Part shown: positions 6,023-18,191 of the stretch, piece after piece
Layout: each line of letters begins with the position of its first letter
How positions within the stretch are numbered: the first letter of the stretch is position 1
Virus record (IMG/VR): IMGVR_UViG_3300004369_000144
Location: 1-23,917 of that record
Direction: 5' to 3' (one strand)
Source of the DNA: a virus
DNA length: 23,917 bases
Position numbers and translations under genes: made by a program
Notes under the pieces: generated by a model
Database searches by the model: none
Seen by the model: only the letters and a program-made list of their open reading frames with translations
What the model was told of the DNA's origin: nothing

Positions 6023-6052
6023 TTGACAAGTTGTGCAGGTAGGTGTTATGAT
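6023..6052 (+). promoter_or_regulatory. Cassette promoter for 6087-6523
   Basis: TTGACA (6023-6028), an 18-bp spacer, then TATGAT (6047-6052). The spacer contains TGCAGGTAGGT, a one-mismatch copy of the conserved spacer element. AACGACGAAAGGACA (6067-6081) follows before the ATG. Confidence 0.8.
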
Positions 6053-6086
6053 GGTCCTACCATCCAAACGACGAAAGGACACCGAG

Positions 6087-6227
6087 ATGGTTTTCAAGAT
6101 AGAGACACCGCAGGGGGTTCTCCCCTACGAATTTGCAACTGAGCGTGAGGCCCGCGATTACGTCATGGCGGCGTTGTCGTGGAGCGGCACGCGATACCGC
6201 ATCATCAAGGAAAGGAAAACGGCGTGA
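6087..6227 (+). CDS. Tiny hypothetical protein
   Basis: This is a 46-residue protein. The start at 6087 is fixed by the AACGACGAAAGGACA start-associated element six bases upstream and the promoter at 6023. It begins with a strand-like segment (FKIETPQGVLPYEF) and a helix (EREARDYVMAALS). It is coupled to the next gene by a GTGA overlap. The function is unknown. Confidence 0.65.
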   Translation: MVFKIETPQGVLPYEFATEREARDYVMAALSWSGTRYRIIKERKTA

Positions 6228-6523
6228 GCACGATAGTCAAGATGGAAACACTGCCCGCTTGCGACTTCTGTGGCAAGACGGCGGGATACGACGCACGGAC
6301 GAAGATGGGCCCGTGGGCCTATATGTGCGAGAGTTGTTTCGAAGACAACGGCACGGGCCAGCTCGGCACGGGCTTCGGACAACGGCTAGTCAAGGACGGC
6401 GAGGACATTGTTATGTCGTGGGGCGAGGTAATGGAACTCACTCACAAGACGCAGGTGGAACTGTTCAACTTCTGCACTTGCGAAGACGGCCCGTCGGTTT
6501 ACGAAGACTGCCCGACCAGCTAG
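6224..6523 (+). CDS. Zinc-binding hypothetical protein
   Basis: This is a 99-residue protein from GTG 6224 (GTGA overlap). CDFC at about residues 12-15 and CESC near 34-37 form a probable zinc ribbon (pattern C-x2-C-G-x(17-18)-C-x2-C). CTC and a further Cys near the C-terminus may add a second site. Small proteins of this layout recur in actinophages without known function. A strong terminator follows. Confidence 0.7.
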   Translation: MSTIVKMETLPACDFCGKTAGYDARTKMGPWAYMCESCFEDNGTGQLGTGFGQRLVKDGEDIVMSWGEVMELTHKTQVELFNFCTCEDGPSVYEDCPTS

Positions 6524-6557
6524 ACGCCTAGCAACAACAGAACAACTTCACGGATGA

Positions 6558-6590
6558 GCCCTCGCCAGGACGGCGGGGGCTTTTCCTTTT
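6558..6590 (+). terminator. Rho-independent terminator
   Basis: GCCCTCGCC (6558-6566) pairs with GGCGGGGGC (6572-6580) over nine pairs with one T-G. TTTTCCTTTT follows. It ends the 6087-6523 operon. Confidence 0.85.
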
Positions 6591-6631
6591 GTGCCGCGAT
6601 GTCGAGCGAGTTGGTAAAAATGTCAGTGAGG

Positions 6632-6637
6632 TATGAT
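6632..6637 (+). promoter_or_regulatory. -10 box for a probable leaderless gene
   Basis: TATGAT ends seven bases before ATG 6645, so transcription would start at or beside the start codon. No standard -35 lies 17 bp upstream; GGTAAAAAT (6613-6621) occupies that zone instead. Confidence 0.5.
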
Positions 6638-6644
6638 AGACAGC

Positions 6645-6830
6645 ATGAACGGACAAGAGCGTAAAAAAGAACGGGACCGCATCAAGCGGTTGACCCGTGG
6701 TATTCCCATAGACAACTTGTCTGTCTACAACCGCGCAGCAACATTCGAAGACCGCCGCACTAATCGTGACCGAAGCAGGTCCGACCAAGAACGAAATGCG
6801 ATTCGCCGCGACCTTGAGGCGGATGAGTAA
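6645..6830 (+). CDS. Small highly basic/charged protein
   Basis: This is a 61-residue protein, mostly Arg, Lys, Asp and Glu, likely helical and perhaps nucleic-acid-binding or disordered. The ATG at 6645 is preferred over 6633 because 6633 lies inside the -10 box TATGAT. With no Shine-Dalgarno site it would be translated leaderless. No family is recognised. Confidence 0.55.
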   Translation: MNGQERKKERDRIKRLTRGIPIDNLSVYNRAATFEDRRTNRDRSRSDQERNAIRRDLEADE

Positions 6831-6900
6831 AAAGTTGTTGGCTTGTTAGAGCTCGTCGAGCCAGCTGGTTTCTTCGTTACAAAAATGTAATAGAACTGGG

Positions 6901-6929
6901 TTGACATCTCCCTGCACCTTTTGTATCAT
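6901..6929 (+). promoter_or_regulatory. Cassette promoter for 6978-7882
   Basis: TTGACA, 17 bp, TATCAT. The spacer has CCTGCA, the reverse-oriented core of the conserved element. AACGACGAAAGGACA follows at 6959-6973. Confidence 0.85.
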
Positions 6930-6977
6930 AGAACTTGCTAGGAACCCCTAGTGACTCAAACGACGAAAGGACACACA

Positions 6978-7193
6978 ATGGCAAAGCCAAGTGTTACGAC
7001 TGTCAAGGAGTGGGAAGTTGTCTACGACAGCGACCTCGTGACAGTCTCGACAGGGACATCAGAGTTCTATCAGGACTACTGGATGCTCAAGGACAAGCAG
7101 ACCAATAAGAAGCGTTACTTCTATGGTGAGACTGCATGGATGGATGCACGCCGCGAGGCGAGCGACCTCGACTTCGGGGCTTGGAGCATCTAA
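6978..7193 (+). CDS. Small hypothetical protein
   Basis: This is a 71-residue protein rich in aromatic residues (EFYQDYWMLKDK, KKRYFYGETAWMDARREA), suggesting a small alpha/beta fold. The start is set by the start-associated element five bases upstream. It is coupled by TAATG to the YubB-like gene, so the two may act together. No family is recognised. Confidence 0.65.
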   Translation: MAKPSVTTVKEWEVVYDSDLVTVSTGTSEFYQDYWMLKDKQTNKKRYFYGETAWMDARREASDLDFGAWSI

Positions 7194-7882
7194 TGCCAAA
7201 CTGGGTATTCACCACAGCAAGCGTTCACGGCGCTGCGGACAAGATTGCTGAGTTCCGTGAGAAGGCTCGACAGCCATACAACACCTACTACGAGGACTGG
7301 CAGACCAAGGAGGTGAAGGAACAGCAACGAGAGGGCGACCTTTTGTTCTGGAACTTCGTCCAGCCCGAGAACAAGCAGGCTTACTTCGGTGACGCACACG
7401 GCACGAAGCCTGAGGGCTACGAGTCGTGGTCATCCGAGGAACGGCTCGCCCACGACCTGAAGTTCTCTGGTCAAGGTTGGTATGACTGGAATGTCACCAA
7501 CTGGGGAACCAAGTGGGAAGCGGATGCCGACCTTGAGCAAGACGAGCCTGAGTTCCTTCAGTATCGGTTTGACACGGCGTGGTCACCTGCCGAGGGAGCC
7601 TTCCGAGCAATGGTCGAACAGCATCCTGACCTTTCGTTCTCGTTCTACTGCGAGGAGGAGCAAGGCTGGGGCGTGGAGTATGACGGCACGGACGGCGAGT
7701 TGACTGTTACCAAACAATGGGACATCCCCGACTCACACACGGCGTGGGCTGACCTTGACCGAGAGGACAGTTGTGTATGTGTTTGGGACGACGACACGGA
7801 GAACTGGTATTCCGACTGCCCGAGGCAAGAGATGACCAAGGAAGAGTTAGACGCAATCGAAGACCTGATTGACGCAATCTGA
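7193..7882 (+). CDS. YubB/Api92-like protein
   Basis: This is a 229-residue acidic protein. It starts MPNWVFTTASVHG, has LLFWNFVQP near residue 50, WYDWNVTNWGTKWEADA near 100-116, and FDTAWSPAEGAFRAMVEQHP near 130-150. This order (MPNW start, W-N-x-x-N-WGTKW, then TAWSPP-like) is the signature of the YubB / DUF1281 ferredoxin-like family found on plasmids and phages. Molecular function is not established for the family. The acidic tail (EELDAIEDLIDAI) is an addition. It is followed by a hairpin at 7896-7922. Confidence 0.65.
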   Translation: MPNWVFTTASVHGAADKIAEFREKARQPYNTYYEDWQTKEVKEQQREGDLLFWNFVQPENKQAYFGDAHGTKPEGYESWSSEERLAHDLKFSGQGWYDWNVTNWGTKWEADADLEQDEPEFLQYRFDTAWSPAEGAFRAMVEQHPDLSFSFYCEEEQGWGVEYDGTDGELTVTKQWDIPDSHTAWADLDREDSCVCVWDDDTENWYSDCPRQEMTKEELDAIEDLIDAI

Positions 7883-7895
7883 CAAACGGCGAGGT

Positions 7896-7922
7896 TGGGG
7901 GCAGGCGAGGAGCTTGCCCCCA
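7896..7922 (+). terminator. Hairpin terminator candidate
   Basis: TGGGGGCA (7896-7903) pairs perfectly with TGCCCCCA (7915-7922) around an 11-base loop. No T-run follows, so termination strength is uncertain. Confidence 0.5.
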
Positions 7923-7995
7923 CTTCGCACGGCGTGGTAAAAAAGACCGAAGCAGCACGGTATGATTGCTGCACACCAACCAAAGGAGAAACGGC

Positions 7996-8289
7996 GTGAC
8001 TGAAGACGCAGGTAAAAACGAAACCGCACCCACCACCGTTACTGTCGAGCGAAGCCTTCACTACTTCGCTTCTGATGGAAACTACGGAAACGCAGATGGA
8101 CTCGTCGTCATGGAGACGACCTTTTGGACTGCGGACGACTGGGACATCATTGACCAGACATCGGATGACGACCGAGGAACTGTTGCTCGACTGTTGACTG
8201 AAAGTTACGAGCCTGATGCGGACCAGGAGTTCATCAAGAATCAGCTCGTTGAGAAATACGGGATTGACTTGTCGCCCTACGGGGGGTAG
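7996..8289 (+). CDS. Acidic hypothetical protein
   Basis: This is a 97-residue acidic protein from GTG 7996, with AAAGGAG nine bases upstream. TATGAT at 7961-7966 is a likely -10 box, with GGTAAAAAA (7936) upstream instead of a TTGACA box. Codons 6-8 are themselves a GGTAAAAAC element (8011). Charge and Asp/Glu density resemble DNA-mimic-type accessory proteins, but that is speculation. The C-terminal segment QLVEKYGIDLSPYGG looks folded. Confidence 0.6.
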   Translation: MTEDAGKNETAPTTVTVERSLHYFASDGNYGNADGLVVMETTFWTADDWDIIDQTSDDDRGTVARLLTESYEPDADQEFIKNQLVEKYGIDLSPYGG

Positions 8290-8300
8290 AGTAAAAATCT

Positions 8301-8365
8301 TCGCCAGGGGTTTTCTTCGTCGTTTTCTCCTGGCGACCAACCTGGGCAAGTTGTAAAACTGCCCA
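8301..8365 (+). terminator. Tandem hairpins after 8289
   Basis: TCGCCAGG (8301-8308) pairs with CCTGGCGA (8329-8336), and TGGGC-AGTT with AACT-GCCCA (8343-8365, one bulged A). GTAAAAATC lies just before the first hairpin. Together they isolate the operon that follows. Confidence 0.6.
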
Positions 8366-8417
8366 TCACCCATTTCTAGGGCTTCGAAAAAAATCTCAAA
8401 AAATCTTGCTCAGGTAG

Positions 8418-8446
8418 TTGACAAGAGTGCATGAAGGTCGTATGAT
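8418..8446 (+). promoter_or_regulatory. Cassette promoter for 8494
   Basis: TTGACA, 17 bp, TATGAT, the canonical -35 with a near-consensus -10. The spacer holds TGCATGAAGGT (one mismatch to the conserved element). AACGACGAAAGGACA follows at 8474-8488. Confidence 0.9.
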
Positions 8447-8493
8447 GTTCTCAATGCCAACCAGGCAGGAAGAAACGACGAAAGGACACCATT

Positions 8494-8949
8494 ATGGGTG
8501 ACAGGGCAGTAGCAGGCTTCAGAGCAAAGTCTGGAGACCCCACCATCTTCATCTACCAGCATTGGGTGCGAGGCACTCAGGAGCAGGTTCTAGCCAACGC
8601 ACTAGAGGCAGCACGCCCTCGCTGGGGCGACGACTCCTATGCGACTCGCATCTGCATCTCGCAGATTGTGCAAGACGATTGGGCAAGCGAAACAGGGTAT
8701 GGCATCTATGTAGGTGGCGACAAGCATGGCGCTGACTACGACCACATCCTGATTGTGGAGTGGGACTCTCGTGAGGTCATCGTTGCAGACAATGATGACT
8801 CAGACCACCAAGTTGCTCGCATCTCGTTTGACGAGTTTCTGTCTGACCCCATCGTGAGCGTGGCGAACGCATCTCTTGACTTCGCTCGTGAGAAGGCAGA
8901 GATGTGGGAGAAGCGTTTCGCTGACATGAAGGCAGGAAACCTCTCCTGA
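8494..8949 (+). CDS. Conserved phage hypothetical protein
   Basis: This is a 151-residue protein. The opening MGDRAVAGF and the blocks FIYQHWVRGTQEQVLANAL, ARPRWGDDSYATRICISQI and ETGYGIYVG match a family I have seen repeatedly in actinophage genomes without assigned function. It has a predicted mixed alpha/beta core and a helical, charged C-terminus (about residues 120-150). It has its own promoter and start-associated element and stands as a single-gene unit before the MoxR operon. Confidence 0.7.
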   Translation: MGDRAVAGFRAKSGDPTIFIYQHWVRGTQEQVLANALEAARPRWGDDSYATRICISQIVQDDWASETGYGIYVGGDKHGADYDHILIVEWDSREVIVADNDDSDHQVARISFDEFLSDPIVSVANASLDFAREKAEMWEKRFADMKAGNLS

Positions 8950-8969
8950 AAAAAAGTTGTGGAGGGGAG

Positions 8970-8998
8970 TTGACTTTCCTGCAACTCTCCTCTACAAT
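8970..8998 (+). promoter_or_regulatory. Cassette promoter for the MoxR operon
   Basis: TTGACT, 17 bp, TACAAT; the spacer starts TTCCTGCA. The promoter sits inside an inverted repeat, GGGGAGTTG (8963-8971) with CAACTCTCC (8982-8990), which may end the upstream transcript. AACGACGAAAGGACA follows at 9018-9032. Confidence 0.85.
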
Positions 8999-9039
8999 GA
9001 AACTGTAAGCAAGTAACAACGACGAAAGGACACCTACAA

Positions 9040-9501
9040 ATGCTGGACGCAACGAAGGATGTGCAGGGAGTTTCTCTGTACGCCGAGTTTCGAAAGCCAG
9101 GTGCGACGATGCAGATTATCGTCACGCCTGATGGTTACAACGAAGAGGGCAAGCAGGTCGCTGGCTCTCTCTATCGCAGAGTCGTGACTCCGAGTGCGCC
9201 GAAGAAACAATGGCGCTCGTCGTCAGTCTCCTCCAATGGGGTGCATGATGTGATTGCAGCCTCTGGACAGATTGAGGACTCTCAGGTTGCAGAGATTGCC
9301 GAACAGCGTCTCTCGTTTGCGACTCAACTCTTTGATGGGATTACTAGTGGAGGTTGGTCAATCACGAACAAGCCTCTTCTCATTGAGACCTCAAAGAAGG
9401 ACTTGACAGATGTTCGTCTGGGCAAGACACCTAACAAGTTGCTCTACCGAGTGAACTTGACCAAAGATGCTGAAGGGTTCCCCAAGGAACTCTTCTCGTA
9501 A
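9040..9501 (+). CDS. Hypothetical protein co-transcribed with MoxR-like ATPase
   Basis: This is a 153-residue soluble protein that I do not recognise. The first 60 residues look beta-rich (GVSLYAEFRKPGATMQIIV) and a basic Ser-rich stretch follows. The start is placed by the start-associated element seven bases upstream. The next gene starts 29 bases after its stop with no promoter between, so the two share a transcript. It is a candidate third component of the MoxR-VWA module. Confidence 0.65.
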   Translation: MLDATKDVQGVSLYAEFRKPGATMQIIVTPDGYNEEGKQVAGSLYRRVVTPSAPKKQWRSSSVSSNGVHDVIAASGQIEDSQVAEIAEQRLSFATQLFDGITSGGWSITNKPLLIETSKKDLTDVRLGKTPNKLLYRVNLTKDAEGFPKELFS

Positions 9502-9530
9502 GTAAAAACACGAAAAACAGGGAGCAAAAA

Positions 9531-10571
9531 ATGACAACAATGAAAGAGCGATACGAAGGTATCCACCCCGACTTTTGGACGACTTTGGAAAAGGTCGTGA
9601 CTCAGGTCGTCAATGAAGAGTCTGCAAAGACTCTCTCTGCAAGCGTGACCTCGCAGGGTCGCTATGTTGCTCGTGCCTCTGGCGCAGAGCGCAAGCCTCG
9701 CAAGTCGAAGGTCGCCATGAGTGCGATAAATGTTGAGATGTTGGAGGGCGAAGAGTCCTACCTGCGTCCCAATGGCACGACCTACTTTGGTCGCAAGTGG
9801 GGAGAGCACTCTGATGTGCCTGCCCTTCGCAAGGCTCGTGAACTCACAGCGAGTGTGTTTGGTGGAGCCTCTGGCTCTCCAATGTTTGCACTTCTCTATG
9901 GCGCACCTGGGTGTGGAAAGACTGCACTCGTTGAGGCTGCGTTTGGCGAAGATGTCTACACGCTGATGGGAACAGGTGACACCGAAGTTGCTGACATGGT
10001 TGGTGGCTATGTTCAGACCCCGAGTGGTGGGTTTGAGTGGATAGATGGTGACCTTGTTCGTGCCGCCGAAGAGGGCAAGGCTTACTTCATTGACGAGATT
10101 GGTCTCATTGACCCCAAGGTTCTCTCTGTGGTCTATGGACTCATGGATGGTCGTCGTGAACTGACCATCACAGCCAACCCCGAGCGTGGAACTATCAAGG
10201 CGCACCCTGAGTTCTATGTGGTCGCCGCGACTAACCCCAACGCACCTGGAGTTCGTCTCTCTGAGGCACTTCTCTCTCGCTTCACTCTTCAGGTTGAGAT
10301 GACGACTGATTGGGCGCTCGCTCGCAAGATGGGCGTGCCGACTCCACTTGTCACAGCGTCTCAGAACCTGAGCAAGAAGCAGAACGCAGGTGAGACTTCA
10401 TGGTCTCCCCAGATGCGTGAGATGCTTGCCTTCCGAGACATCGCTGAAGGTTTCGGGACTGAGTTTGCAATCTCGAACTTGCTCGCAGCATCTCCAGAGA
10501 TTGACAGACCTGTGGTCGCAGATGTCTTGACTCGTGTCTATGGACAGGAGTGCAAGCCAGCCAAAATCTGA
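9531..10571 (+). CDS. MoxR-type AAA+ ATPase
   Basis: This is a 346-residue protein. Walker A GAPGCGKT spans residues 124-131, Walker B FIDEIG 186-191, sensor 1 TNPN 234-237, and the arginine-finger-like LSEALLSRF ends at R250. The region between Walker A and B (DTEVADMVGGYVQTPSG) matches MoxR/CbbQ/NorQ proteins, which remodel a partner containing a VWA domain; such a protein is encoded next. The first 110 residues are an extra N-terminal domain of unknown type. Translation uses GGGAGC upstream of ATG 9531. Phage MoxR-like ATPases are known, but their substrate is not. Confidence 0.85.
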   Translation: MTTMKERYEGIHPDFWTTLEKVVTQVVNEESAKTLSASVTSQGRYVARASGAERKPRKSKVAMSAINVEMLEGEESYLRPNGTTYFGRKWGEHSDVPALRKARELTASVFGGASGSPMFALLYGAPGCGKTALVEAAFGEDVYTLMGTGDTEVADMVGGYVQTPSGGFEWIDGDLVRAAEEGKAYFIDEIGLIDPKVLSVVYGLMDGRRELTITANPERGTIKAHPEFYVVAATNPNAPGVRLSEALLSRFTLQVEMTTDWALARKMGVPTPLVTASQNLSKKQNAGETSWSPQMREMLAFRDIAEGFGTEFAISNLLAASPEIDRPVVADVLTRVYGQECKPAKI

Positions 10572-10604
10572 GTTCTTCCCTGTTCTCAGTTTGGCTCATG
10601 GGAG

Positions 10605-10636
10605 TGGGGGGAGGTCAATAGGTGTCCCTCCCCCCA
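10605..10636 (+). terminator. GC-rich hairpin between MoxR and VWA genes
   Basis: TGGGGGGAGG (10605-10614) pairs perfectly with CCTCCCCCCA (10627-10636), and flanking GGGAG/CTCCC extends it. It separates two genes that would normally form one operon; the VWA gene has its own promoter directly after it. Confidence 0.6.
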
Positions 10637-10647
10637 ACTCTCCCTAG

Positions 10648-10676
10648 TTGACAATCACCTAGAAAGTCTCTATGAT
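10648..10676 (+). promoter_or_regulatory. Promoter for the VWA gene
   Basis: TTGACA, 17 bp, TATGAT. It is the one strong cassette promoter whose spacer lacks TGCAGG or CCTGCA, so it may escape the shared regulator. AACGACGAAAGGAAC follows at 10702. Confidence 0.85.
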
Positions 10677-10721
10677 AGAGACAAGCCCAAGGGACATGGG
10701 TAACGACGAAAGGAACGAACA

Positions 10722-12524
10722 ATGGGACATCTCAAAGACAGCACGACTCGTGCAGAGAACACGCCACCTGAGTGGCTTGGCGTTGGCATGGCGATTGGCG
10801 AGCTCGCTAACACTTGGAGTGAGCGCCACGACCTCGTTGGGTATGTGGGTAAGAACGCAGGACATGGAGCGCCTGCCTGTTACAACCCCACCCTTGCTGA
10901 GATTGAGGTTGACACAGACATCGCTTTCGGAACGATGGTTACGCCGCAAATGGTTGGCGACCTCCGAGAGCGTTCACAGCAGTATGAGTTTCCGAAGGCA
11001 ACAGGTGCAATCATGCACGAAGCCTTCCACGCAAAGTATTCCGAGTGGAGCATCCCTGATGCTCAGAAGGCTCTGAAGCCAAATGAGTTCACAGCACTCA
11101 TGTGGTTGGAAGAGTCTCGCATTGAGGCGCAAGGCATGAAGGCGATGCCAAAGGCTCGTCCCTTCCTGAGAGCGTGCGCCATTGACATCGTAATCAACGA
11201 TGCGAAGGAAAAGTTCGCAGAGCACTCCAACACAATGAGTGCGTCTTTCTTTGTTGCGACTGTTCACTCTCGCATGGACGCAGGCATCTTGGAATACGAA
11301 GATGTCGCAGAGTTGGTTGAGTTGGTCAACGACTATCTGGGTCACGATGTTGTTGAGAAGTTGCGAGCAATCGCTGACGAGTTTCGTGCCTACACGATGC
11401 ACTCGCTTGCCGACCCCATCCTCTATGACCTTGCTCGCAAGTGGGCAGAGATTGTTCAGGAAGTTGCCGAAGAGAAGGGCGACGCTAAGAGCGAGTCTGC
11501 CGAGTCTGGCGAGGCTGGCGAAGGCGCAAGTGGTGCGACTGAAGAGTTCGTCAAGGAGATGATGGAGGCGCTGGAAGAGGCGAAGGCATCTGTCTCCATT
11601 GGAGTCATGGGCGACCTCGCTGACCAAGAGACTCAGGAAGAGTGGGACGAGCAAGTAGAGCAGAAGAAGTCTGAGTCTGATGAAAAGAAGGCGCACGAAG
11701 AGACTGCACAGAAAGTGTTCTCAAAGGGAACTACTGAGTCTGGTGGCAGGAGTTCGTCGTATCTCGTGGAGACTCGCACGCCGAAGCCTGACGAGCGAGT
11801 CGCAGCAGTTCAGATTGCAAAGATGTTGGAGCGTGCGAAGTATCGTGAGCGTGACGCAATCGAAGTCAAGAGCGTGACACCTCCAGGTCGCCTTCGCACT
11901 CGTGCGTTGGTTCAGGGCAAGGCGCTCAAAGAGCGTGGAGTCGTGACTCAGGTGGAGCCTTGGCGCAAGACTGTTCGCAAGCAGACTGACGAGCCGACGC
12001 TGACTGTTGGAGTCATGGTGGACATCTCAGGCTCAATGGGTGGTGCGATGGAGCCAATGGCAATCACAGCGTGGGTCATGTCCGAAGCAGTCAAGCGAGT
12101 GCAGGGCAAGACAGCGATGGTCTACTACGGCAACGATGTCTTTGCGACTCTGAAGCCAAATCAACACCTTGACAATGTTGCGGTCTGGGCAGCGACTGAT
12201 GGAACCGAAAAGTTTCAGAAGGCGTTTCAGGCGCTTGATGGTGGACTCAACTTGCTCAACGGGCGTGGCGCTCGTTTGCTCGTCGTCGTGAGCGATGGTC
12301 AATACACAAGCGAGGAACAGAAGAACGCTCGCAAGTGGATGCACCGATGCAAGCAGGCAGGCGTTGGAGTTCTCTGGCTCCCGTTTGAGGACGGGCGTTG
12401 GGTCAAGCACTACGGCGACAATGTGCAGGTCGTGGCGAACACGACGAAGCCTGCGGATGCGTCAATGGAAATCGGCAAGGCGTGCATGAAGGCGCTAGAG
12501 CAGGCAGGCTCCCGAGTGGCGTGA
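10722..12524 (+). CDS. HExxH + VWA domain protein, MoxR partner
   Basis: This is a 600-residue protein. HEAFH at residues 99-103, followed by WLEESRIE about 25 residues later, has the shape of a zinc-metallopeptidase site (HExxH plus a downstream Glu) as in the N-terminal parts of some VWA proteins. An acidic, Glu/Ala/Gly-rich linker covers about 245-365. A C-terminal VWA domain begins near 430 with MIDAS motif DISGS (434-438) and a VVSDGQYT strand at 522-529. CobT-like and DUF2201-like proteins share this order and pair with MoxR ATPases. It could be a chaperone or protease complex acting on host or phage proteins. It is the largest gene here. Confidence 0.8.
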   Translation: MGHLKDSTTRAENTPPEWLGVGMAIGELANTWSERHDLVGYVGKNAGHGAPACYNPTLAEIEVDTDIAFGTMVTPQMVGDLRERSQQYEFPKATGAIMHEAFHAKYSEWSIPDAQKALKPNEFTALMWLEESRIEAQGMKAMPKARPFLRACAIDIVINDAKEKFAEHSNTMSASFFVATVHSRMDAGILEYEDVAELVELVNDYLGHDVVEKLRAIADEFRAYTMHSLADPILYDLARKWAEIVQEVAEEKGDAKSESAESGEAGEGASGATEEFVKEMMEALEEAKASVSIGVMGDLADQETQEEWDEQVEQKKSESDEKKAHEETAQKVFSKGTTESGGRSSSYLVETRTPKPDERVAAVQIAKMLERAKYRERDAIEVKSVTPPGRLRTRALVQGKALKERGVVTQVEPWRKTVRKQTDEPTLTVGVMVDISGSMGGAMEPMAITAWVMSEAVKRVQGKTAMVYYGNDVFATLKPNQHLDNVAVWAATDGTEKFQKAFQALDGGLNLLNGRGARLLVVVSDGQYTSEEQKNARKWMHRCKQAGVGVLWLPFEDGRWVKHYGDNVQVVANTTKPADASMEIGKACMKALEQAGSRVA

Positions 12525-12537
12525 CCGACAAGACTTC

Positions 12538-12633
12538 CTCGCCTTGGTTTGAGTTAGCGTTCCTTTCTCATGTCCCCCTCCAAGGCGAGGACGGGAGAGG
12601 GGTTCCAATCCCCCCGAGACGAACCCCTCTCCC
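12538..12633 (+). terminator. Two consecutive perfect hairpins after the VWA gene
   Basis: CTCGCCTTGG (12538-12547) pairs with CCAAGGCGAG (12580-12589). GGGAGAGGGGTT (12593-12604) pairs with AACCCCTCTCCC (12622-12633). There is no T-run. This is a probable double terminator or RNA stabiliser, insulating the MoxR-VWA block on its right side. Confidence 0.6.
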
Positions 12634-12680
12634 ACCCCAATCTAAAACGGCAAGTCGAACGGGGGAGGAGGTAGGTAAAA

Positions 12681-13163
12681 ATGCGAAGAGTAAAACCGAT
12701 GACAAACGCAGAGTTGTTCGAGCAGATGTACGGGCTTGATGATTACACGGTTGAGTGGACGGCTGGGTTTCCACTTGCGCTGACGCAGCAGGACGCCGCG
12801 TTCTATTGCAACGGAGGCGGGAGCTCGTTGGTGTGTACGGTAAAAAAGAACGGCTTCCAGGTAGACATCTACTGCGACGGCGAGATGCGGGCACGAGTTC
12901 TTGCTGATGAGAACCGATACGAGACGGTCAGCTCTGGAGACGAGTTCGAGTCATACGGGGTAAAAACGGATGCTGATTTATCGCGGCTGGTCGAAGAGTT
13001 CGGCATGAACCCCTGGTTTGACCTGTATGTGTATGGCGAGCATCTTGATGCGGTCGAACACGAAATCGCAGATGCAATCAACGCCGCGAAGGCTTGGCTT
13101 GACGACTGCTGCGAAAACGCAAATCAGATTGAGAACGGAGTGCTTGACCTTCCTGCAGTTTGA
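12681..13163 (+). CDS. Hypothetical acidic protein
   Basis: This is a 160-residue protein. Its ATG is the last part of a GGTAAAAATG element, with GGGAGGAGG as ribosome-binding site. It carries two more GGTAAAAA copies (12839, 12959), each encoding Val-Lys. MTNAELFEQMYGLDDYTVEWT near the start and CCENA near the end are the only notable features; the fold looks mixed alpha/beta. The next promoter lies across its final codons, which constrains this end. The function is unknown. Confidence 0.65.
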   Translation: MRRVKPMTNAELFEQMYGLDDYTVEWTAGFPLALTQQDAAFYCNGGGSSLVCTVKKNGFQVDIYCDGEMRARVLADENRYETVSSGDEFESYGVKTDADLSRLVEEFGMNPWFDLYVYGEHLDAVEHEIADAINAAKAWLDDCCENANQIENGVLDLPAV

Positions 13164-13172
13164 TGTTATGAT
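13144..13172 (+). promoter_or_regulatory. Cassette promoter inside a gene end
   Basis: TTGACC, 17 bp, TATGAT; the spacer has TTCCTGCAG. The -35 box and operator are read as the last codons of the upstream gene, whose stop is at 13161-13163. AACGACGAAAGGACA follows at 13188-13202. Confidence 0.85.
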
Positions 13173-13206
13173 GATGCGGCAAGGCAAAACGACGAAAGGA
13201 CAGCCG

Positions 13207-13698
13207 ATGCATACAGGACACATCCTCCTCGTTGAGGCGGAGTCACACGAAGAAGCACTCGACAAGGTTCGTAGCACGATTGAGTATGCGGAGAACCCAA
13301 CACCCTCGTGGTCTGATTGGCACGAGATTGGTGGTCGCTGGGAGAACTACTTGGGTAAGTACGGGTATGTCATGTGCTACGACAAGGACGAGCATCTCGC
13401 AGAAGAGAAAATCCACGACATGGTTCAGAGCCGAGTCAGCTCCATGCTTGCCGCGTGGGAACAGGTAAAAAACTTTGACATCGAAGCTGCGATTGCCAGC
13501 TACCTGCCTGACAAGGGCGGCTTTGACATGAACCCCTATTACCTGAAGAAGATTGCGGAGACTCTAAACAACGAGTGGACTCCTGACTCCCATGTCTACG
13601 ACTTGGAGACTTGGACTTCCGACCTGAAGTATTTCCGTGAGCGACTCGCTATCGCACCTGAGATGCAGTACCTCGTTGTCGTGGACTTCCATTTCTGA
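13207..13698 (+). CDS. Conserved phage hypothetical protein
   Basis: This is a 163-residue protein. The opening (HILLVEAESHEEALDKVRS) followed by SWSDWHEIGGRWENYLG and later DMNPYYLKKIAETLNNEW is a recurring layout in actinophage proteins of unknown role; it suggests a ferredoxin-like first half and a helical second half. The start is fixed by the start-associated element. A GGTAAAAA copy at 13464 encodes Val-Lys. It forms the start of an operon with its own promoter and ends before another. Confidence 0.7.
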   Translation: MHTGHILLVEAESHEEALDKVRSTIEYAENPTPSWSDWHEIGGRWENYLGKYGYVMCYDKDEHLAEEKIHDMVQSRVSSMLAAWEQVKNFDIEAAIASYLPDKGGFDMNPYYLKKIAETLNNEWTPDSHVYDLETWTSDLKYFRERLAIAPEMQYLVVVDFHF

Positions 13699-13711
13699 GA
13701 CACGCCGATGC

Positions 13712-13740
13712 TTGACTTGTGTGCAGGAAGGTAGTACGAT
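13712..13740 (+). promoter_or_regulatory. Cassette promoter for 13769-14776
   Basis: TTGACT, 17 bp, TACGAT; the spacer has the full TGCAGGAAGGT. A shortened start-associated sequence (ACGGAAGGACACC) precedes ATG 13769. Confidence 0.88.
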
Positions 13741-13768
13741 GAAACTACCTACTACGGAAGGACACCTA

Positions 13769-13996
13769 ATGACAACAATGCCAGAGATTTGGACTCGCAT
13801 CGAAACCCCTCGCTGCACTTGGTGCGGATACAAGGGCGAGATGGATGTGCCGATGTCGGGACTCGTCGCTCGCAAGAGTGGCGCACTTATCCAAGATGCG
13901 TTTCCCGAGATGGAGCGACCACAGCGTGAGCAAATCATGTCAGGCACTCACCCCGAGTGCTGGACAGAAATGTTTGGGATGGTTGAGCATGGCTAA
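13769..13996 (+). CDS. Small Cys/His hypothetical protein
   Basis: This is a 75-residue protein. CTWC at residues 16-19 and a later His-x3-Cys (HPECW) could bind one zinc ion. It starts the five-gene run 13769-14776 in which every member has a Cys motif or overlaps one. It overlaps the next gene by eight bases. Confidence 0.62.
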   Translation: MTTMPEIWTRIETPRCTWCGYKGEMDVPMSGLVARKSGALIQDAFPEMERPQREQIMSGTHPECWTEMFGMVEHG

Positions 13997-14132
13997 GACA
14001 GTTTGGCTCTACATCAACTGCTGGTTATGCGGTGGGGCGATGAAAGTCGCCTCACACCGATACAACAGTCACGCTTCATGCGAGGCGTGCGTTCCTAATG
14101 GCTGGAGGAGAACCGATGCCGACAATGGCTGA
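13989..14132 (+). CDS. Tiny zinc-ribbon protein
   Basis: This is a 47-residue protein with CWLC at about residues 11-14 and CEAC near 31-34, a minimal four-cysteine ribbon. It overlaps both neighbours, consistent with translational coupling. No family is recognised. Confidence 0.58.
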   Translation: MAKTVWLYINCWLCGGAMKVASHRYNSHASCEACVPNGWRRTDADNG

Positions 14133-14358
14133 GAAGATTGCCGCTAATAAGCGGTACATCACGAGAGAGTATGGGTGGATGGTTGGCAAGACCATCGCCT
14201 CTATTCGACCCTTGACCTCATCCGAGATTGAGAACATGGGATGGTACGAAGGAAGCGAGATTGCTTTCGTTGTTATGTTCACCGATGGTTCCTGGTTTGT
14301 GCCGATGTCAGATGACGAAGGCAACTCATCTGGAGCTCTCATGTACGAAGGAAGGTAA
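14116..14358 (+). CDS. Hypothetical protein
   Basis: This is an 80-residue protein. ATG 14116 is chosen over 14098 because GGAGGAG lies at the right distance upstream. The C-terminal half looks like paired beta strands (EIAFVVMFTDGSWFVPM), a pattern shared by several short phage proteins that read as small beta-barrels. It overlaps the end of the preceding gene. Confidence 0.6.
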   Translation: MPTMAEKIAANKRYITREYGWMVGKTIASIRPLTSSEIENMGWYEGSEIAFVVMFTDGSWFVPMSDDEGNSSGALMYEGR

Positions 14359-14360
14359 AA

Positions 14361-14594
14361 ATGTTTGGAACCAAGAAGCGACGCTCGACTTACATTGACC
14401 CAAAGAGCGTGAAGACCTGTCCCGATTGCGGTGGGTTTATCCCCAACAACGCAAACCCTGGGGCTTACCCTGGCGCACTATCACGCCGCGACAACAAGAC
14501 AGAAATCTGTTCCTCATGCGGAACACGAGAAGCGATGGAGGACTTCTGGGGCATGGCTGATTACATTGACCATGCTCGGAGGGCTTCCAAGTGA
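14361..14594 (+). CDS. Zinc-ribbon protein
   Basis: This is a 77-residue protein with CPDC at residues 20-23 and CSSCGTREAMEDF beginning near residue 51. The second knuckle followed by GTREA(M/L)EDF is a widespread actinophage small-protein motif of unknown function. The start codon is embedded in GGTAAAAATG, with GAAGGAAGG as ribosome-binding site. It overlaps the next gene (GTGA). Confidence 0.7.
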   Translation: MFGTKKRRSTYIDPKSVKTCPDCGGFIPNNANPGAYPGALSRRDNKTEICSSCGTREAMEDFWGMADYIDHARRASK

Positions 14595-14776
14595 AGACTT
14601 CCTCAACCTGCGCCCGATGCGGATGGGCTGTTGAGAAGAACCTGAACTCTGGTGAGTGGTTGGACGAGTGGGGTTCCCCACTCTGCTCGTCCACCCCTCC
14701 CCGAAGCATCCCCCACAAGCCAAGAGGGCTGGAAACCCCTGAAAACGAGGCTTTCGAGGCTGTTACCAAACTGTAA
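14591..14776 (+). CDS. Small Cys-motif protein
   Basis: This is a 61-residue protein from GTG 14591, coupled to the zinc-ribbon gene by GTGA. CARC lies near residues 7-10 and a single later Cys near 32. Pro-rich sequence follows. It is the last gene of the run; a possible weak dyad GTTAC/GTAAC lies at the stop codon. Confidence 0.5.
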   Translation: MKTSSTCARCGWAVEKNLNSGEWLDEWGSPLCSSTPPRSIPHKPRGLETPENEAFEAVTKL

Positions 14777-14797
14777 CAATCTTTCTGCATTTTGGAG

Positions 14798-14826
14798 TTG
14801 CAAAGTGCAGAGAGATGCTGTAATGT
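14798..14826 (+). promoter_or_regulatory. Promoter for 14910
   Basis: TTGCAA, 17 bp, TAATGT; the spacer holds TGCAGAGAG, a weaker copy of the conserved element. CTGCA/TGCAG arms (14784-14811) also flank the -35 box. The leader to 14910 lacks the usual start-associated sequence. Confidence 0.65.
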
Positions 14827-14909
14827 TCTAGTTGTTGGAGAGCAGGACTCCCCAACCTCTCCCCACAAAGGGTGCGGAGAGAAGAGACAGAAAGACAAGG
14901 TGAAGCCAA

Positions 14910-15245
14910 ATGGCAACATCAATCATCAACAAGGTCGTGACTGAGGTCGTGACCGAGCGCAAGGCAGCCACTCTGGATGCCGACACGCTTTCCGCTCTGG
15001 CACAGTTCGTCGCTACTCGTGACGCAATCCGTGACCTTGAGAAGACCAAGAAGGAACTTGAGGCTTCCATCCGTGAGGCTCTCGGTGACGCTGAGGTCGG
15101 AGTCAATGCAAATGGAGAAATCACCGTTGAGGTGAGCCTCCGTGAGCGCAAGGGAGTGGACACTAAGGCTCTTGCCGAGGCGTTCCCCGAGGCTTACGAA
15201 GCCTGCCAGACTCTCACCGAGTATTCGGTTCTGGTCGCCAAGTAA
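14910..15245 (+). CDS. Conserved small phage protein with coiled coil
   Basis: This is a 111-residue protein. Residues 25-60 form a strong helix (FVATRDAIRDLEKTKKELEA); then VGVNANGEITVEVSLRERKG is strand-like, and the end (VDTKALAEAFPEAYEACQTL) is a motif I associate with a small actinophage protein often found near recombination or exonuclease genes. No such gene is nearby, so the link is weak. It is a single-gene unit between a promoter and a strong terminator. Confidence 0.65.
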   Translation: MATSIINKVVTEVVTERKAATLDADTLSALAQFVATRDAIRDLEKTKKELEASIREALGDAEVGVNANGEITVEVSLRERKGVDTKALAEAFPEAYEACQTLTEYSVLVAK

Positions 15246-15261
15246 GACCCACACGGAGATT

Positions 15262-15291
15262 GCCCCTCACCGAAAGGTGGGGGGCTTTCTT
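15262..15291 (+). terminator. Rho-independent terminator with GAAA loop
   Basis: GCCCCTCACC (15262-15271) and GGTGGGGGGC (15276-15285) form ten pairs closed by a stable GAAA tetraloop, followed by TTTCTT. Confidence 0.92.
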
Positions 15292-15305
15292 CATGTCTGG
15301 GGTCA

Positions 15306-15391
15306 GATGCGGAGATGTCGAGATGCTGCGCCAGGAGCTGGTTGGGTAAAAATGTTGTTGCGATGTCGCCGCGCCAGGAGCTCGGCTCGAA
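15306..15391 (+). repeat. Direct repeats flanking a GGTAAAAAT element
   Basis: GATGTCG followed after a few bases by GCGCCAGGAGCT occurs before (15314-15339) and after (15363-15386) the GGTAAAAAT at 15345-15353. The first copy also forms CCAG/CTGG just before the motif. This is the clearest case of the motif sitting between copies of the CCAGGAGCT word. It lies in a 246-base gap with no supported gene. Confidence 0.55.
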
Positions 15392-15427
15392 AAGCAGAAA
15401 CACTTCAGAAAAACTTTGCGGAGATGC

Positions 15428-15456
15428 TTGACTTAGATGCAGGAAAGTGTTACGAT
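15428..15456 (+). promoter_or_regulatory. Cassette promoter for 15492-16218
   Basis: TTGACT, 17 bp, TACGAT; the spacer has TGCAGGAAAGT. AACGACGAAAGGACA follows at 15473-15487. Confidence 0.88.
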
Positions 15457-15491
15457 GACATTGTTCATCCAAAACGACGAAAGGACACAAG

Positions 15492-15740
15492 ATGAACTTC
15501 CAGATAGAGATTGACGAGACAGATGCGGAAATCCTGACGATGGGCGTTGCGATGCTCATGCGGTACACCGAGGAACGCATTGAGCGTCACAACAATCATA
15601 AGGATTACTCCATGGACAAGTTGTTTGCCAAGATGGAGATGCTGGCTCGCACGGGCGACCTGTGGGTGCGGTTGCACAAGGCGCAGGGCATGTCGCAGGA
15701 GGAAATCTCCATGTTCTTGCGAGAGGCTGGTAACGCCTGA
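15492..15740 (+). CDS. Small helical hypothetical protein
   Basis: This is an 82-residue, mostly helical protein (MDKLFAKMEMLARTGDLWVRL, then MSQEEISMFLREAG, an HTH-like pair only by general shape). The start is set by the start-associated element. It is the first of three tightly packed genes; the next ATG overlaps its stop (TGATG). Confidence 0.62.
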   Translation: MNFQIEIDETDAEILTMGVAMLMRYTEERIERHNNHKDYSMDKLFAKMEMLARTGDLWVRLHKAQGMSQEEISMFLREAGNA

Positions 15741-15994
15741 TGCAAGTGAAAGAACTGATTGAGCAACTGCAACAGAACTACACACCCGAGACTGAACTCT
15801 ATGTTGAGTATTGGGACAAGGAGACTGTTGATGGTTACATGTGGGTAGGAGAAAAGTCTCCCGAACTCACAGACGATGAGTGGGGTGCGGTCGTTGATGC
15901 GATGGAGAACTCCGAACGTCTTGACCAGAGCATGGCTGCCGACAGCCTTGTCGAAGAAGCCAAAGCCGTGATGGCGGAGAGGGAGGACAGGTAA
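15740..15994 (+). CDS. Small acidic hypothetical protein
   Basis: This is an 84-residue protein. MQVKELIEQLQQNYTPETEL, then EYWDKETVDGY, resembles short phage proteins with a 'pdtel.veYWdke' core. A helical acidic tail follows. It is coupled to the upstream gene by a TGATG junction. Its stop is inside the GGTAAAAATG element that starts the next gene. Confidence 0.62.
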   Translation: MQVKELIEQLQQNYTPETELYVEYWDKETVDGYMWVGEKSPELTDDEWGAVVDAMENSERLDQSMAADSLVEEAKAVMAEREDR

Positions 15995-15996
15995 AA

Positions 15997-16218
15997 ATGT
16001 CGGATGCGGTTGATGAAATCGAGCTGACGAAGACAGTTCTGTTCGTAGGCGACTACTTCAGCCTGATGAGCACGGTCGTGTTGTCCGAGGAACTCCGTGA
16101 AGAGGGCGAAGATGACGACGACTTCGCAATAAGACTTGCATCCGTGCTCCTAAAGGAGCATTATGGGTGGGACGTTGAAGATGCTGCTACGGTCAGCATC
16201 GGCATCGTCGAAGAGTAA
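15997..16218 (+). CDS. Small acidic hypothetical protein
   Basis: This is a 73-residue protein. TVLFVGDYFSLMSTVVL and KEHYGWDVEDAATVSIGIVEE flank a very acidic centre; the pattern recurs in mycobacteriophage and related phage small proteins of unknown function. The start codon is part of GGTAAAAATG. A strong terminator follows 30 bases after the stop. Confidence 0.62.
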   Translation: MSDAVDEIELTKTVLFVGDYFSLMSTVVLSEELREEGEDDDDFAIRLASVLLKEHYGWDVEDAATVSIGIVEE

Positions 16219-16247
16219 CTGCAGTCATAAAACGCCTCCTAGCCCAG

Positions 16248-16276
16248 AAGCCCTCGCAGAGATGCGGGGGCTTTCT
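16248..16276 (+). terminator. Rho-independent terminator
   Basis: AAGCCCTCGC (16248-16257) pairs with GCGGGGGCTT (16264-16273) around AGAGAT; TCT follows. It ends the 15492-16218 operon. Confidence 0.85.
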
Positions 16277-16467
16277 GGTCTCCAGGAGCAAATCACGGTA
16301 AAAATCCCGAGTTATCCTAGAGATGCCGCTGGCTGGCTTGAGAGCATCTCGCCGCCTAGCGATGAGGTGGCTTGCTACCGCCACCGCCCCTTCTCCTGGT
16401 CTCCCTACAGGGGGAGGGGTTATTGAGCCTCCTACTCACATTCGGGTTGCTGGAGTAAAGTTGAGGT
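16277..16467 (+). other. Intergenic region with GGTAAAAAT and dyads
   Basis: This stretch has no supported gene. GGTAAAAATCCCGAG begins at 16297, with CCAGGAGC shortly before. AGGTGGC/GCCACC (about 16365-16386) forms a hairpin. TGGTCTCC occurs at both ends (16276 and 16398). No cassette promoter is seen, so the promoter for 16468 is uncertain; TTGCTG and TATGAA near 16448-16470 are poorly spaced. Confidence 0.4.
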
Positions 16468-16701
16468 ATGAACCTAGACATCATTGACAGGGCTATCCAC
16501 CCCAACAAGGCGGGCTCTCCTTTTGTTGCCGCCATCGTTGATGATGCGGAAGATGGAAAAACCAAGTTGGTCATTCAGTTCGAGGAAGAAGGCTGCACAG
16601 CAGTTCTTCTTCTTGACTCATTGATTGAGGAGGAAAACATCGCAGTTGATGGTTCTCCCGCCGCTTACGAAGAACTTCGAGAGCAGCTCTGGGATAGGTA
16701 A
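16468..16701 (+). CDS. Small acidic hypothetical protein
   Basis: This is a 77-residue protein. HPNKAGSPFVAAIVDDAEDG, then KLVIQFEEEGCTAVLLLDSL, reads as a small beta-sheet protein with a helical end. GTTGAGG provides a weak ribosome-binding site. Its final codons (GAGCAGCTCT at 16681) form one arm of a long inverted repeat that encloses a GGTAAAAA element. Confidence 0.6.
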   Translation: MNLDIIDRAIHPNKAGSPFVAAIVDDAEDGKTKLVIQFEEEGCTAVLLLDSLIEEENIAVDGSPAAYEELREQLWDR

Positions 16702-16737
16702 AAAACTCGTGCAGCTGCCGCATCGAGAGCTGCTCGA
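16681..16737 (+). repeat. Inverted repeat enclosing GGTAAAAA
   Basis: GAGCAGCTCT (16681-16690) and AGAGCTGCTC (about 16728-16737) are a perfect 10-bp inverted repeat. Inside lie GGTAAAAA (16697) and CAGCTG. The structure covers the end of one gene and the leader of the Ntn-hydrolase gene, so it may control read-through into the latter. Confidence 0.65.
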
Positions 16738-16767
16738 CATCTAAAAATCTTGAGGAGGTGAGTGTCG

Positions 16768-17334
16768 ATGACGACGATTGCTGCCGTCCAGGGAAATGGA
16801 TGGGCTGTTGTGGGCTATGACTCTAGAGTCACAGACGACTCTCGCGTCTACACACTTCCCAAAAACTCAGGGAAGGTGGTCTCTAATGGTTCGTACATGC
16901 TTGGCGCAGCAGGCGACATGCGGGCAATCAACTTGCTCGGTCATGTGCTGAAGGCTCCCACCCCTCCTGTTGATGCAGATGAGGAAGAACTTGATGCTTT
17001 TATCTCCCAGAAGTTTGTGCCGTCCCTGAAGAAGTGCTTTGACGAAGCCCAGTACGGAGAGAAGGGCGAACACGATTCGCATGTGATTGCGGTTGTTCAG
17101 GGCGTTGTCTATGACATTGGCTCAAACTACGACTGGTGTCGAGATGTTGAGGGGATTTACGCCGTCGGAACTGGAGGGCAGTTTGCCCTGGGAGCTCTCT
17201 ACTCGACGCTGGTAGGTAAAAAAAGAACCATCTCAGCTGCGCGGCAAGCTGTCCAGGAAGCTGTTGAGATTGCGTGTCAGCTTGACTCGAACTCAGCAGG
17301 GCCAGTCAATCTGCTGGTTCAGAAGTGGGAGTGA
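16768..17334 (+). CDS. Proteasome-beta/HslV-like Ntn-hydrolase
   Basis: This is a 188-residue protein. After Met it reads TTIAAVQGNGWAVVGYDSR. Counting from the Thr, T1, D17 and R19 fall where proteasome beta subunits and HslV have the catalytic Thr, Asp17 and Arg19. Lys appears at 31 and 35, near the canonical Lys33. AVGTGGQFALGAL corresponds to the GSGG-ALGA block, and DSNS to the D-x-x-S pair. No propeptide is present, so Met removal could expose T1, as in HslV. ATG 16768 is chosen with AGGAGG nine bases upstream; GTG 16762 would hide T1. Partner ATPase or substrate is unknown; the MoxR protein is one possibility. Confidence 0.78.
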   Translation: MTTIAAVQGNGWAVVGYDSRVTDDSRVYTLPKNSGKVVSNGSYMLGAAGDMRAINLLGHVLKAPTPPVDADEEELDAFISQKFVPSLKKCFDEAQYGEKGEHDSHVIAVVQGVVYDIGSNYDWCRDVEGIYAVGTGGQFALGALYSTLVGKKRTISAARQAVQEAVEIACQLDSNSAGPVNLLVQKWE

Positions 17335-17544
17335 GCAGTTTCGACACATGCTCAGGTGAGGCAAGTCTCTTTGCCGTCAGCCAGAGGCTCAACCCCCTGA
17401 CCTACCATGGCGAGCCGTCTAGACGCACAGGACACCCAGCCCAAGTCTGTGCCGACCCTTCGCTATCTCCATAATGTAATCAGCCCCCTGTGTGAGGGCA
17501 GTTGCACATCATAAGCAGGTCTGAAAACTTTTTGCAAGAAGGAC
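17335..17544 (+). other. Gap with no supported gene
   Basis: This stretch contains one small hairpin (GGCAA/TTGCC at 17360-17375) and a CCCT/AGGG dyad near 17488-17503. I checked for tRNA-like folding and found no acceptor or T arm. It appears to be a terminator and spacer region before the next cassette promoter. Confidence 0.4.
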
Positions 17545-17573
17545 TTGACATCTTCCTGCACTTCCTGTATGCT
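17545..17573 (+). promoter_or_regulatory. Cassette promoter for 17604
   Basis: TTGACA, 17 bp, TATGCT; the spacer has TTCCTGCA. AACGACGAAAGGAAA follows at about 17579. Confidence 0.87.
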
Positions 17574-17603
17574 GGTCTCAACGACGAAAGGAAAGGAAAG
17601 ACA

Positions 17604-17903
17604 ATGCCAAAGGGACTACCCGACAGCATTACCTACACGATGGGCAAGCGCGTTATGCGTGTTGCTCGCGACAAGAACTCCGAGAAGTTGCAGAACTTTG
17701 AGGATGGTGTCGTAGTTGGAGCGATGGCTTTCTGGGGAACCATAAAGTTGGCTCAATGGGCTTTGTGGGTGCTGTTCAGCCCCATCATCCTTCTGGGCTG
17801 GCTTGCCGAGAAGGAACTTGCTCGCATGAACCGCAAGCAGGTGCGCCTTCAGCGTCAGGCTCGCTACCAAATGGCTGTGACACGCCGAAAGGCTCAGTCG
17901 TAG
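17604..17903 (+). CDS. Small membrane protein
   Basis: This is a 99-residue protein. One or two hydrophobic segments cover about residues 34-68 (GVVVGAMAFWGT, then WALWVLFSPIILLGWL). The N-terminus and the C-terminal tail (about 75-99) are strongly basic, so both probably face the cytoplasm. The start follows the start-associated element by several A/G-rich bases. The function is unknown. Confidence 0.65.
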   Translation: MPKGLPDSITYTMGKRVMRVARDKNSEKLQNFEDGVVVGAMAFWGTIKLAQWALWVLFSPIILLGWLAEKELARMNRKQVRLQRQARYQMAVTRRKAQS

Positions 17904-17909
17904 ACCTAC

Positions 17910-17938
17910 TTGCATTTTGCAGGAAGGTCTGGTAACCT
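17910..17938 (+). promoter_or_regulatory. Cassette promoter for 17982-19720
   Basis: TTGCAT, 17 bp, TAACCT; the spacer has the full TGCAGGAAGGT. AACGACGAAAGGACA follows at about 17962. It probably drives the seven-gene run to 19720. Confidence 0.82.
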
Positions 17939-17981
17939 TAGTAACACAAGCAACACCCACAAACGACGAAAGGACAGAAAG

Positions 17982-18191
17982 ATGAGAGAAGACAGCCTTC
18001 TATTCATTGACACTTCTAAGTGGAACAAGGCACCGAAGTACCGCCGTAGGCGTGCTGTGGTGTTCACCCTGCTTGCGGTGTTCACTCTGACAATCATCTG
18101 GCAGGTCGCTACCAACCTTTGGTGGGTTGGCGATGGTTACTGCTGGGGAGACATCACCGAGTGCATAGTGGAGCGCATGAACAACCCATGA
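17982..18191 (+). CDS. Single-pass membrane protein
   Basis: This is a 69-residue protein with a basic segment (KYRRRRA, near residues 19-25), then a hydrophobic span (about 26-46) and a short exported tail holding two Cys (CWGDITEC) that could form a disulfide outside the membrane. This is type II topology. It is coupled to the next gene by ATGA. Confidence 0.65.
   Translation: MREDSLLFIDTSKWNKAPKYRRRRAVVFTLLAVFTLTIIWQVATNLWWVGDGYCWGDITECIVERMNNP

Follow-up and report, generated by a model that had tools for sequence, protein, structure and literature searches.

A three-gene module of freshwater actinophages: a MoxR-type ATPase, an HExxH-VWA protein and the conserved partner p153

Group 2.2 jumbo phages encode a MoxR/metallopeptidase-vWA pair, for which a role in virion assembly was suggested (Iyer et al. 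2021, PMC7824862). An archaeal-virus MoxR-vWA pair that is needed for tail development is cited in the same paper. Among bacterial relatives, NorQD offers a structural reference: there the VWA domain sends a finger into the pore of the ATPase, and turnover has been proposed to make this domain twist relative to the N-terminal one (PMC13036017). MoxR-VWA pairs are frequent in phages, where they often carry the label of a cobalamin gene or 'peptidase', and in the literature on them we found no tested function. Here we describe a three-gene module at 9040-12524 of a 23.9-kb phage contig (IMG/VR virus record IMGVR_UViG_3300004369_000144, positions 1 to 23,917; the entire 23,917-nt stretch is called the window), whose carrier is a phage of freshwater Actinobacteria. 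The module joins a small protein, p153, to a MoxR-type ATPase and a VWA protein with an HExxH motif. We give an even chance to the reading that these proteins form a machine that uses ATP to remodel proteins and probably contains a zinc protease, that it processes a target protein, and that p153 is its partner.

All three genes are on the plus strand, as are the features within and around them described below. The open reading frame of p153 (9040..9501, 153 residues, without Pfam or PHROG family) is followed after 29 nt by the gene of a 346-residue MoxR/CbbQ-NorQ-type AAA+ ATPase (9531..10571). A further 150 nt, which hold a promoter-like site, separate the latter from the gene of the 600-residue HExxH-VWA protein (10722..12524). 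Scans of IMG/VR anchored on the VWA protein and on the ATPase gave about 120 relatives of the clade, and linkage was counted over dereplicated loci with enough sequence. The p153 gene lies directly upstream of the ATPase gene in 66 of 66 VWA-anchored and 30 of 31 ATPase-anchored loci. The VWA gene is next to the ATPase gene, always with HExxH, in 66/66 VWA-anchored loci (partly selected for this motif, since one pattern of that scan held HEA-x-HA) and in 30/30 of the independent ATPase-anchored set. An earlier note on this DNA had set persistence of the 9040 gene beside MoxR beforehand as a refuting test and had proposed to look for the same three-gene order in other phages. The gene is kept in these loci and also in Microbacterium phages, and a gene order identical to that of the window is found in the actinophage DSL-LC01. 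Direct homologues of the module proteins are also present in the actinophages Pumpernickel, Cece, Phendrix and Sixama. In Gordonia phages, unlike the window, other small proteins sit between the ATPase and the VWA protein. In remote phages, whose ATPases are about 30% identical, a VWA-like gene adjoins the ATPase gene in 32 of 32 cases, and 27 of these 32 VWA-like genes have an N-terminal HExxH.

In five Microbacterium jumbo phages a p153 homologue of 142-146 aa is encoded directly upstream of the ATPase (hhalign 96-98%), and all three parts of the module are present in cultured phages of this genus. Detailed mapping of one of the five, Pumpernickel, placed the VWA gene 29 kb from the p153-ATPase pair. 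Since the pair persists despite this separation, the bond of p153 is with the ATPase. A large gene follows the pair in the Microbacterium jumbo phages (L016, L190-L193) and is labelled rIIA-like in three of them. A general rIIA association of the module was considered and rejected, as the HATPase match is limited to Microbacterium phages.

The ATPase is intact, as the earlier note had read from its motifs. It matches AAA_5 with E=1.5e-21, and its best solved relatives are Midasin, NorQ and CbbQ. Walker A GAPGCGKTA (9900..9926), Walker B FIDE (10086..10097), sensor-1 Asn235 and the Arg250 finger (10233..10280 from N235 to R250), together with Arg296, are kept across eight homologues down to 50% identity, and the key residues are invariant. 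The extreme C-terminal tail KPAKI (10554..10568) is near-invariant across the clade. Microbacterium phages and part of the Gordonia phages have it in the form P-x-[KR]-[IV], and it is missing from the remote CobS-like phage ATPases.

Three motifs of the VWA protein are strictly conserved. H99-E100-A101-x-H103, L129-E130-E131 with R133-I134-E135, and the metal ion-dependent adhesion site (MIDAS) D434-x-S436-x-S438 show no substitution in 57 relatives, the most distant of which are 40% identical, and the HExxH, LEExRIE and MIDAS motifs are thus beyond chance; the HEAFH, downstream Glu and DISGS that had been pointed out before are all among these residues. HEAFH (residues 99-103, 11016..11030) is a candidate zinc site, and LEESRIE (129-135, 11106..11126), invariant save its fourth position, would supply the third zinc ligand through E131 or E135. 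The MIDAS DISGS (434-438) is encoded at 12021..12035. A VWA_CoxE match (3.1e-6) spans residues 411-581. In the AlphaFold2 (AF2) model (predicted local distance difference test score, pLDDT, 85), an N-terminal domain is followed by a 60-residue helical linker (274-334 by DSSP, 11541..11723) and then by the VWA domain. The VWA model aligns with the Rea1 MIDAS domain (VIA-align Z 17.4, 195 residues aligned, 3.0 Å) and with NorD (Foldseek E 3.8e-7; VIA-align Z 14.5, root-mean-square deviation 8.2), and the VWA fold is thereby confirmed at the level of the predicted structure. Modelling of this protein, which the earlier note had suggested as a check, is less decisive for the N-terminal domain: the model has three strands, the HExxH helix (91-106) and a separate LEESRIE helix (120-141), and a metallopeptidase fold is supported by the motif and this predicted topology. 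Just ahead of the VWA domain, at the place expected for a NorD-like finger, lies PPGRLRxRA. The predicted finger (11841..11987) has P387, G389 and L391 invariant, the aligned NorD range includes the NorD finger, and the GR-L-A pattern is found in 81 of 92 clade proteins vs 4 of 92 after shuffling.

The p153 proteins form a single family, whose conserved positions in an alignment of 53 members include E16, Q25, P30, R47, W58 and R137. The family is found in none of Pfam, PHROGs and NCBIfam. Its AF2 model is a confident alpha+beta fold (pLDDT 91), for which Foldseek and VIA-align against the PDB gave nothing convincing (best Z 5.7). The structure search returned weak WGR-like and AAA-containing viral matches, and a Pfam scan of the 53 members gave no WGR match. 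That p153 might be an N-domain split off from a larger ATPase was also considered and dropped, as the N-terminal extensions of the Phendrix, Sixama and GMA6 ATPases are unmatched. The genes between ATPase and VWA in the same three phages do not match p153 either.

By its architecture, a MoxR ATPase whose vWA partner begins with a putative metallopeptidase domain, the window pair belongs to the phage class of Iyer et al. 2021, so that the two-protein core was already known. Compared by description and not by sequence, the present pair differs in its carriers, freshwater actinophages with contigs of up to about 160 kb, in the extra conserved p153 gene and the conserved ATPase C-tail, and in a location that does not favour virion assembly. 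New here are the actinophage clade, the p153 family with its ATPase linkage and the C-tail, as are the predicted finger and the distinction of the pair from CobT. The likeness to NorQ/NorD and CbbQ/CbbO lies in the ATPase, which matches the NorQ and CbbQ structures, in the VWA domain, which matches NorD in the NorQD complex, and in the finger-like motif upstream of it. In contrast to these systems, the module comes with an additional p153 and without a nitric oxide reductase or Rubisco target, and an HExxH domain is not described for NorD in the sections of the source considered.

Read against these systems, the ATPase would form a MoxR hexamer, and the VWA domain would dock in its central pore through the finger (about residues 374-422, with PPGRLRTRA), by analogy with NorQD. 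ATP turnover could then twist the VWA domain against the N-terminal domain via the long helical linker. The target protein would be gripped by the MIDAS, while Zn binding and the cleavage or trimming of the target would fall to the N-terminal domain with its HExxH...ExxRxE motif; this target is probably a protein of the host or a non-structural one of the phage. p153 would be an obligate ATPase partner and most likely acts as an adaptor for substrates or as a regulator, because the two genes remain together even after relocation of the VWA gene. Several points weigh against this picture. The N-terminal domain has no sequence match to a known peptidase among PDB sequences, and Pfam gave nothing of note. 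It has no peptidase fold match either, in a search that used the whole VWA model and not the domain by itself; as the whole-model VIA-align listed matches to the VWA part only, the absence of a peptidase among them is uninformative. HExxH may also be a structural metal site, and the argument from timing uses gene position and promoter type only. We hold more tentatively, at clearly less than even probability, an extended version of the same scheme, in which the three proteins are the parts of an ATP-gated metalloprotease, p153 selects the substrate and the actinophages process a host protein. If true, this would be a new type of regulated protease, with a MoxR ring and a VWA finger driving a zinc peptidase.

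The strongest competitor, to which we assign about the same minor share of probability as to this extended version, is the proposal of Iyer et al. 2021 of a chaperone for virion assembly with a processing protease, which would put head or tail proteins together and trim them. The architecture is like that described for the jumbo-phage pair, and the archaeal-virus pair mentioned above is required in tail development (PMC7824862). However, in DSL-LC01 the module (26.7-30.1 kb) is outside the head/tail block (44-84 kb), lying 14 kb upstream of the terminase amid small genes, and the structural block has three annotated capsid maturation proteases of its own. The Pumpernickel ATPase likewise sits among nucleotide-metabolism and HATPase/rIIA-like genes. 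Thus the machine probably acts outside head/tail assembly. A NorQD/CoxDE-like chaperone for metal insertion, in which the HExxH domain loads a phage or host metalloenzyme without proteolysis, appears improbable: bacterial MoxR-VWA relatives do insert metals and NorD is among the closest VWA structures, but no dedicated metalloenzyme target adjoins the module, and a simple metal carrier needs no strictly conserved catalytic-type HExxH glutamate.

The annotations bring in another ATPase and VWA pair, CobS/CobT. The DSL-LC01 record labels the VWA gene 'cobalamin biosynthesis protein', and a CobST role has been proposed for phages (PMC8651126). Here it would mean that host CobN is used and B12 is raised for a phage B12-dependent ribonucleotide reductase. 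Such a B12 link is conceivable, with a B12-dependent RTPR encoded by DSL-LC01 as well as by 13 of 15 large relatives; the Gordonia phages that carry the module have no RTPR. CobN is absent in 23 of 23 genomes of one candidate host genus, that of the single metagenome-assembled-genome contig in which a relative is found, which is only a hint of the host. The window proteins match neither CobS TIGR01650 nor CobT TIGR01651 at E <= 0.1, whereas the ICP2 proteins match both; hhalign to CobT is weak (probability 2-5%), with the CobT motif ARxEAxGA weakly aligning with the window LEESRIEAQG. Five bacterial-plasmid CobT sequences have no HExxH, nor does the one Acinetobacter plasmid CobT examined; ICP2 gp41 'CobT' resembles the window protein in having an N-terminal HExxH too. 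As the CobS and CobT models are unmatched and true CobT is without HExxH, the pair is, as judged by sequence, not CobST, and we rate a CobST-like helper as doubtful as a metal inserter. The same comparison suggests that some phage 'CobT' labels are wrong. The ICP2 CobT-like VWA protein is matched by 757 plasmid records, mostly of Klebsiella, Escherichia and Acinetobacter (e.g. L098), and in IMG/VR the VWA proteins of ICP2, GMA6 and Phendrix have no relatives beyond those phages or near copies. The least probable alternative is that the MoxR ATPase serves as unfoldase for a phage HslV-like N-terminal-threonine peptidase, whose gene lies 4 kb downstream (16762-17334) and which has TTI as well as an Asp where HslV has Asp17. 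DSL-LC01 and Pumpernickel encode HslV, as do 14 of 15 large relatives; DSL-LC01 has no annotated HslU, and the ATPase C-tail is conserved. But the same type of tail occurs in the HslV-less Cece, Zooman, Big4, Forza and GMA2, for which reason it was rejected as an HslV-specific link, and Gordonia phages retain the module without HslV. Among proteases, chaperones and metal inserters, the clade offers a clean test of what such machines are, because its zinc motif, invariant and of catalytic type, is not in true CobT, and because its ATPase keeps a partner not described before.

The earlier note had further taken the block for a possible mobile cassette with its own regulation and had mentioned conflict systems; neither idea is borne out. 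Pfam-type scans (PADLOC was not searched) matched no VMAP/iSTAND or effector domains in p153 or the VWA protein, and positive evidence for a host-type conflict system is absent here. The p153 gene has a sigma70-like promoter TTGACT-17-TACAAT (8970..8998) with the leader ACGACGAAAGG at 9019, and the VWA gene has TTGACA-17-TATGAT (10648..10676) with ACGACGAAAGG at 10703. These are two of nine ACGACGAAAGG leaders on the plus strand of the window, with none on the minus strand, most of them preceded by TTGACW-17/18-TATGAT-like promoters. A promoter with a ACGACGAAAGGA leader stands ahead of at least seven other window genes besides p153 and VWA. The repeated start-associated element extends over 6023-17990 (plus strand) as a TTGACW-17/18-TATGAT-like promoter, then ACGACGAAAGGACACC, then ATG. 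We saw no such promoter-plus-GAAAGGA pattern in the relative DSL-LC01; the p153-type promoter site is also found in the relatives L002, L003, L020-L023 and L038. A second start-associated element, GGTAAAA(ATG), accounts for 24 GGTAAAAA on the plus vs 3 on the minus strand, several of which end in a start codon. GGTAAAAA is truly missing from 9040-12524, the nearest copies being at 8011 and 12674. This is not a sign of foreign origin, however, because p153 and VWA use the other leader type of the window. As the leader element is common to other genes and the block is syntenic in the freshwater actinophage family, the block is a resident part of the phage lineage and not a mobile cassette. Other window genes are likewise syntenic in relatives.

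The hairpins that had been placed at the block borders are real. Upstream, a hairpin with a 17-bp stem (8956..8998, -27.1 kcal/mol, z -6.6) overlaps the promoter-like site of p153; the site is enclosed by an imperfect palindrome of 17 bp, which may serve as operator or attenuator. The relatives L002, L003, L004, L020 and L021 also have long stems, of 12-17 bp, upstream of p153. Downstream, a hairpin without T-run follows the VWA gene (12593..12633, z -3.4). Between the ATPase and VWA genes there is another (10600..10644, z -2.2), and in most relatives this gap is strongly structured, with z < -2 against mononucleotide shuffles in 59 of 72. Elsewhere in the window, a tRNA-Glu (CTC) gene is located at 2088-2163.

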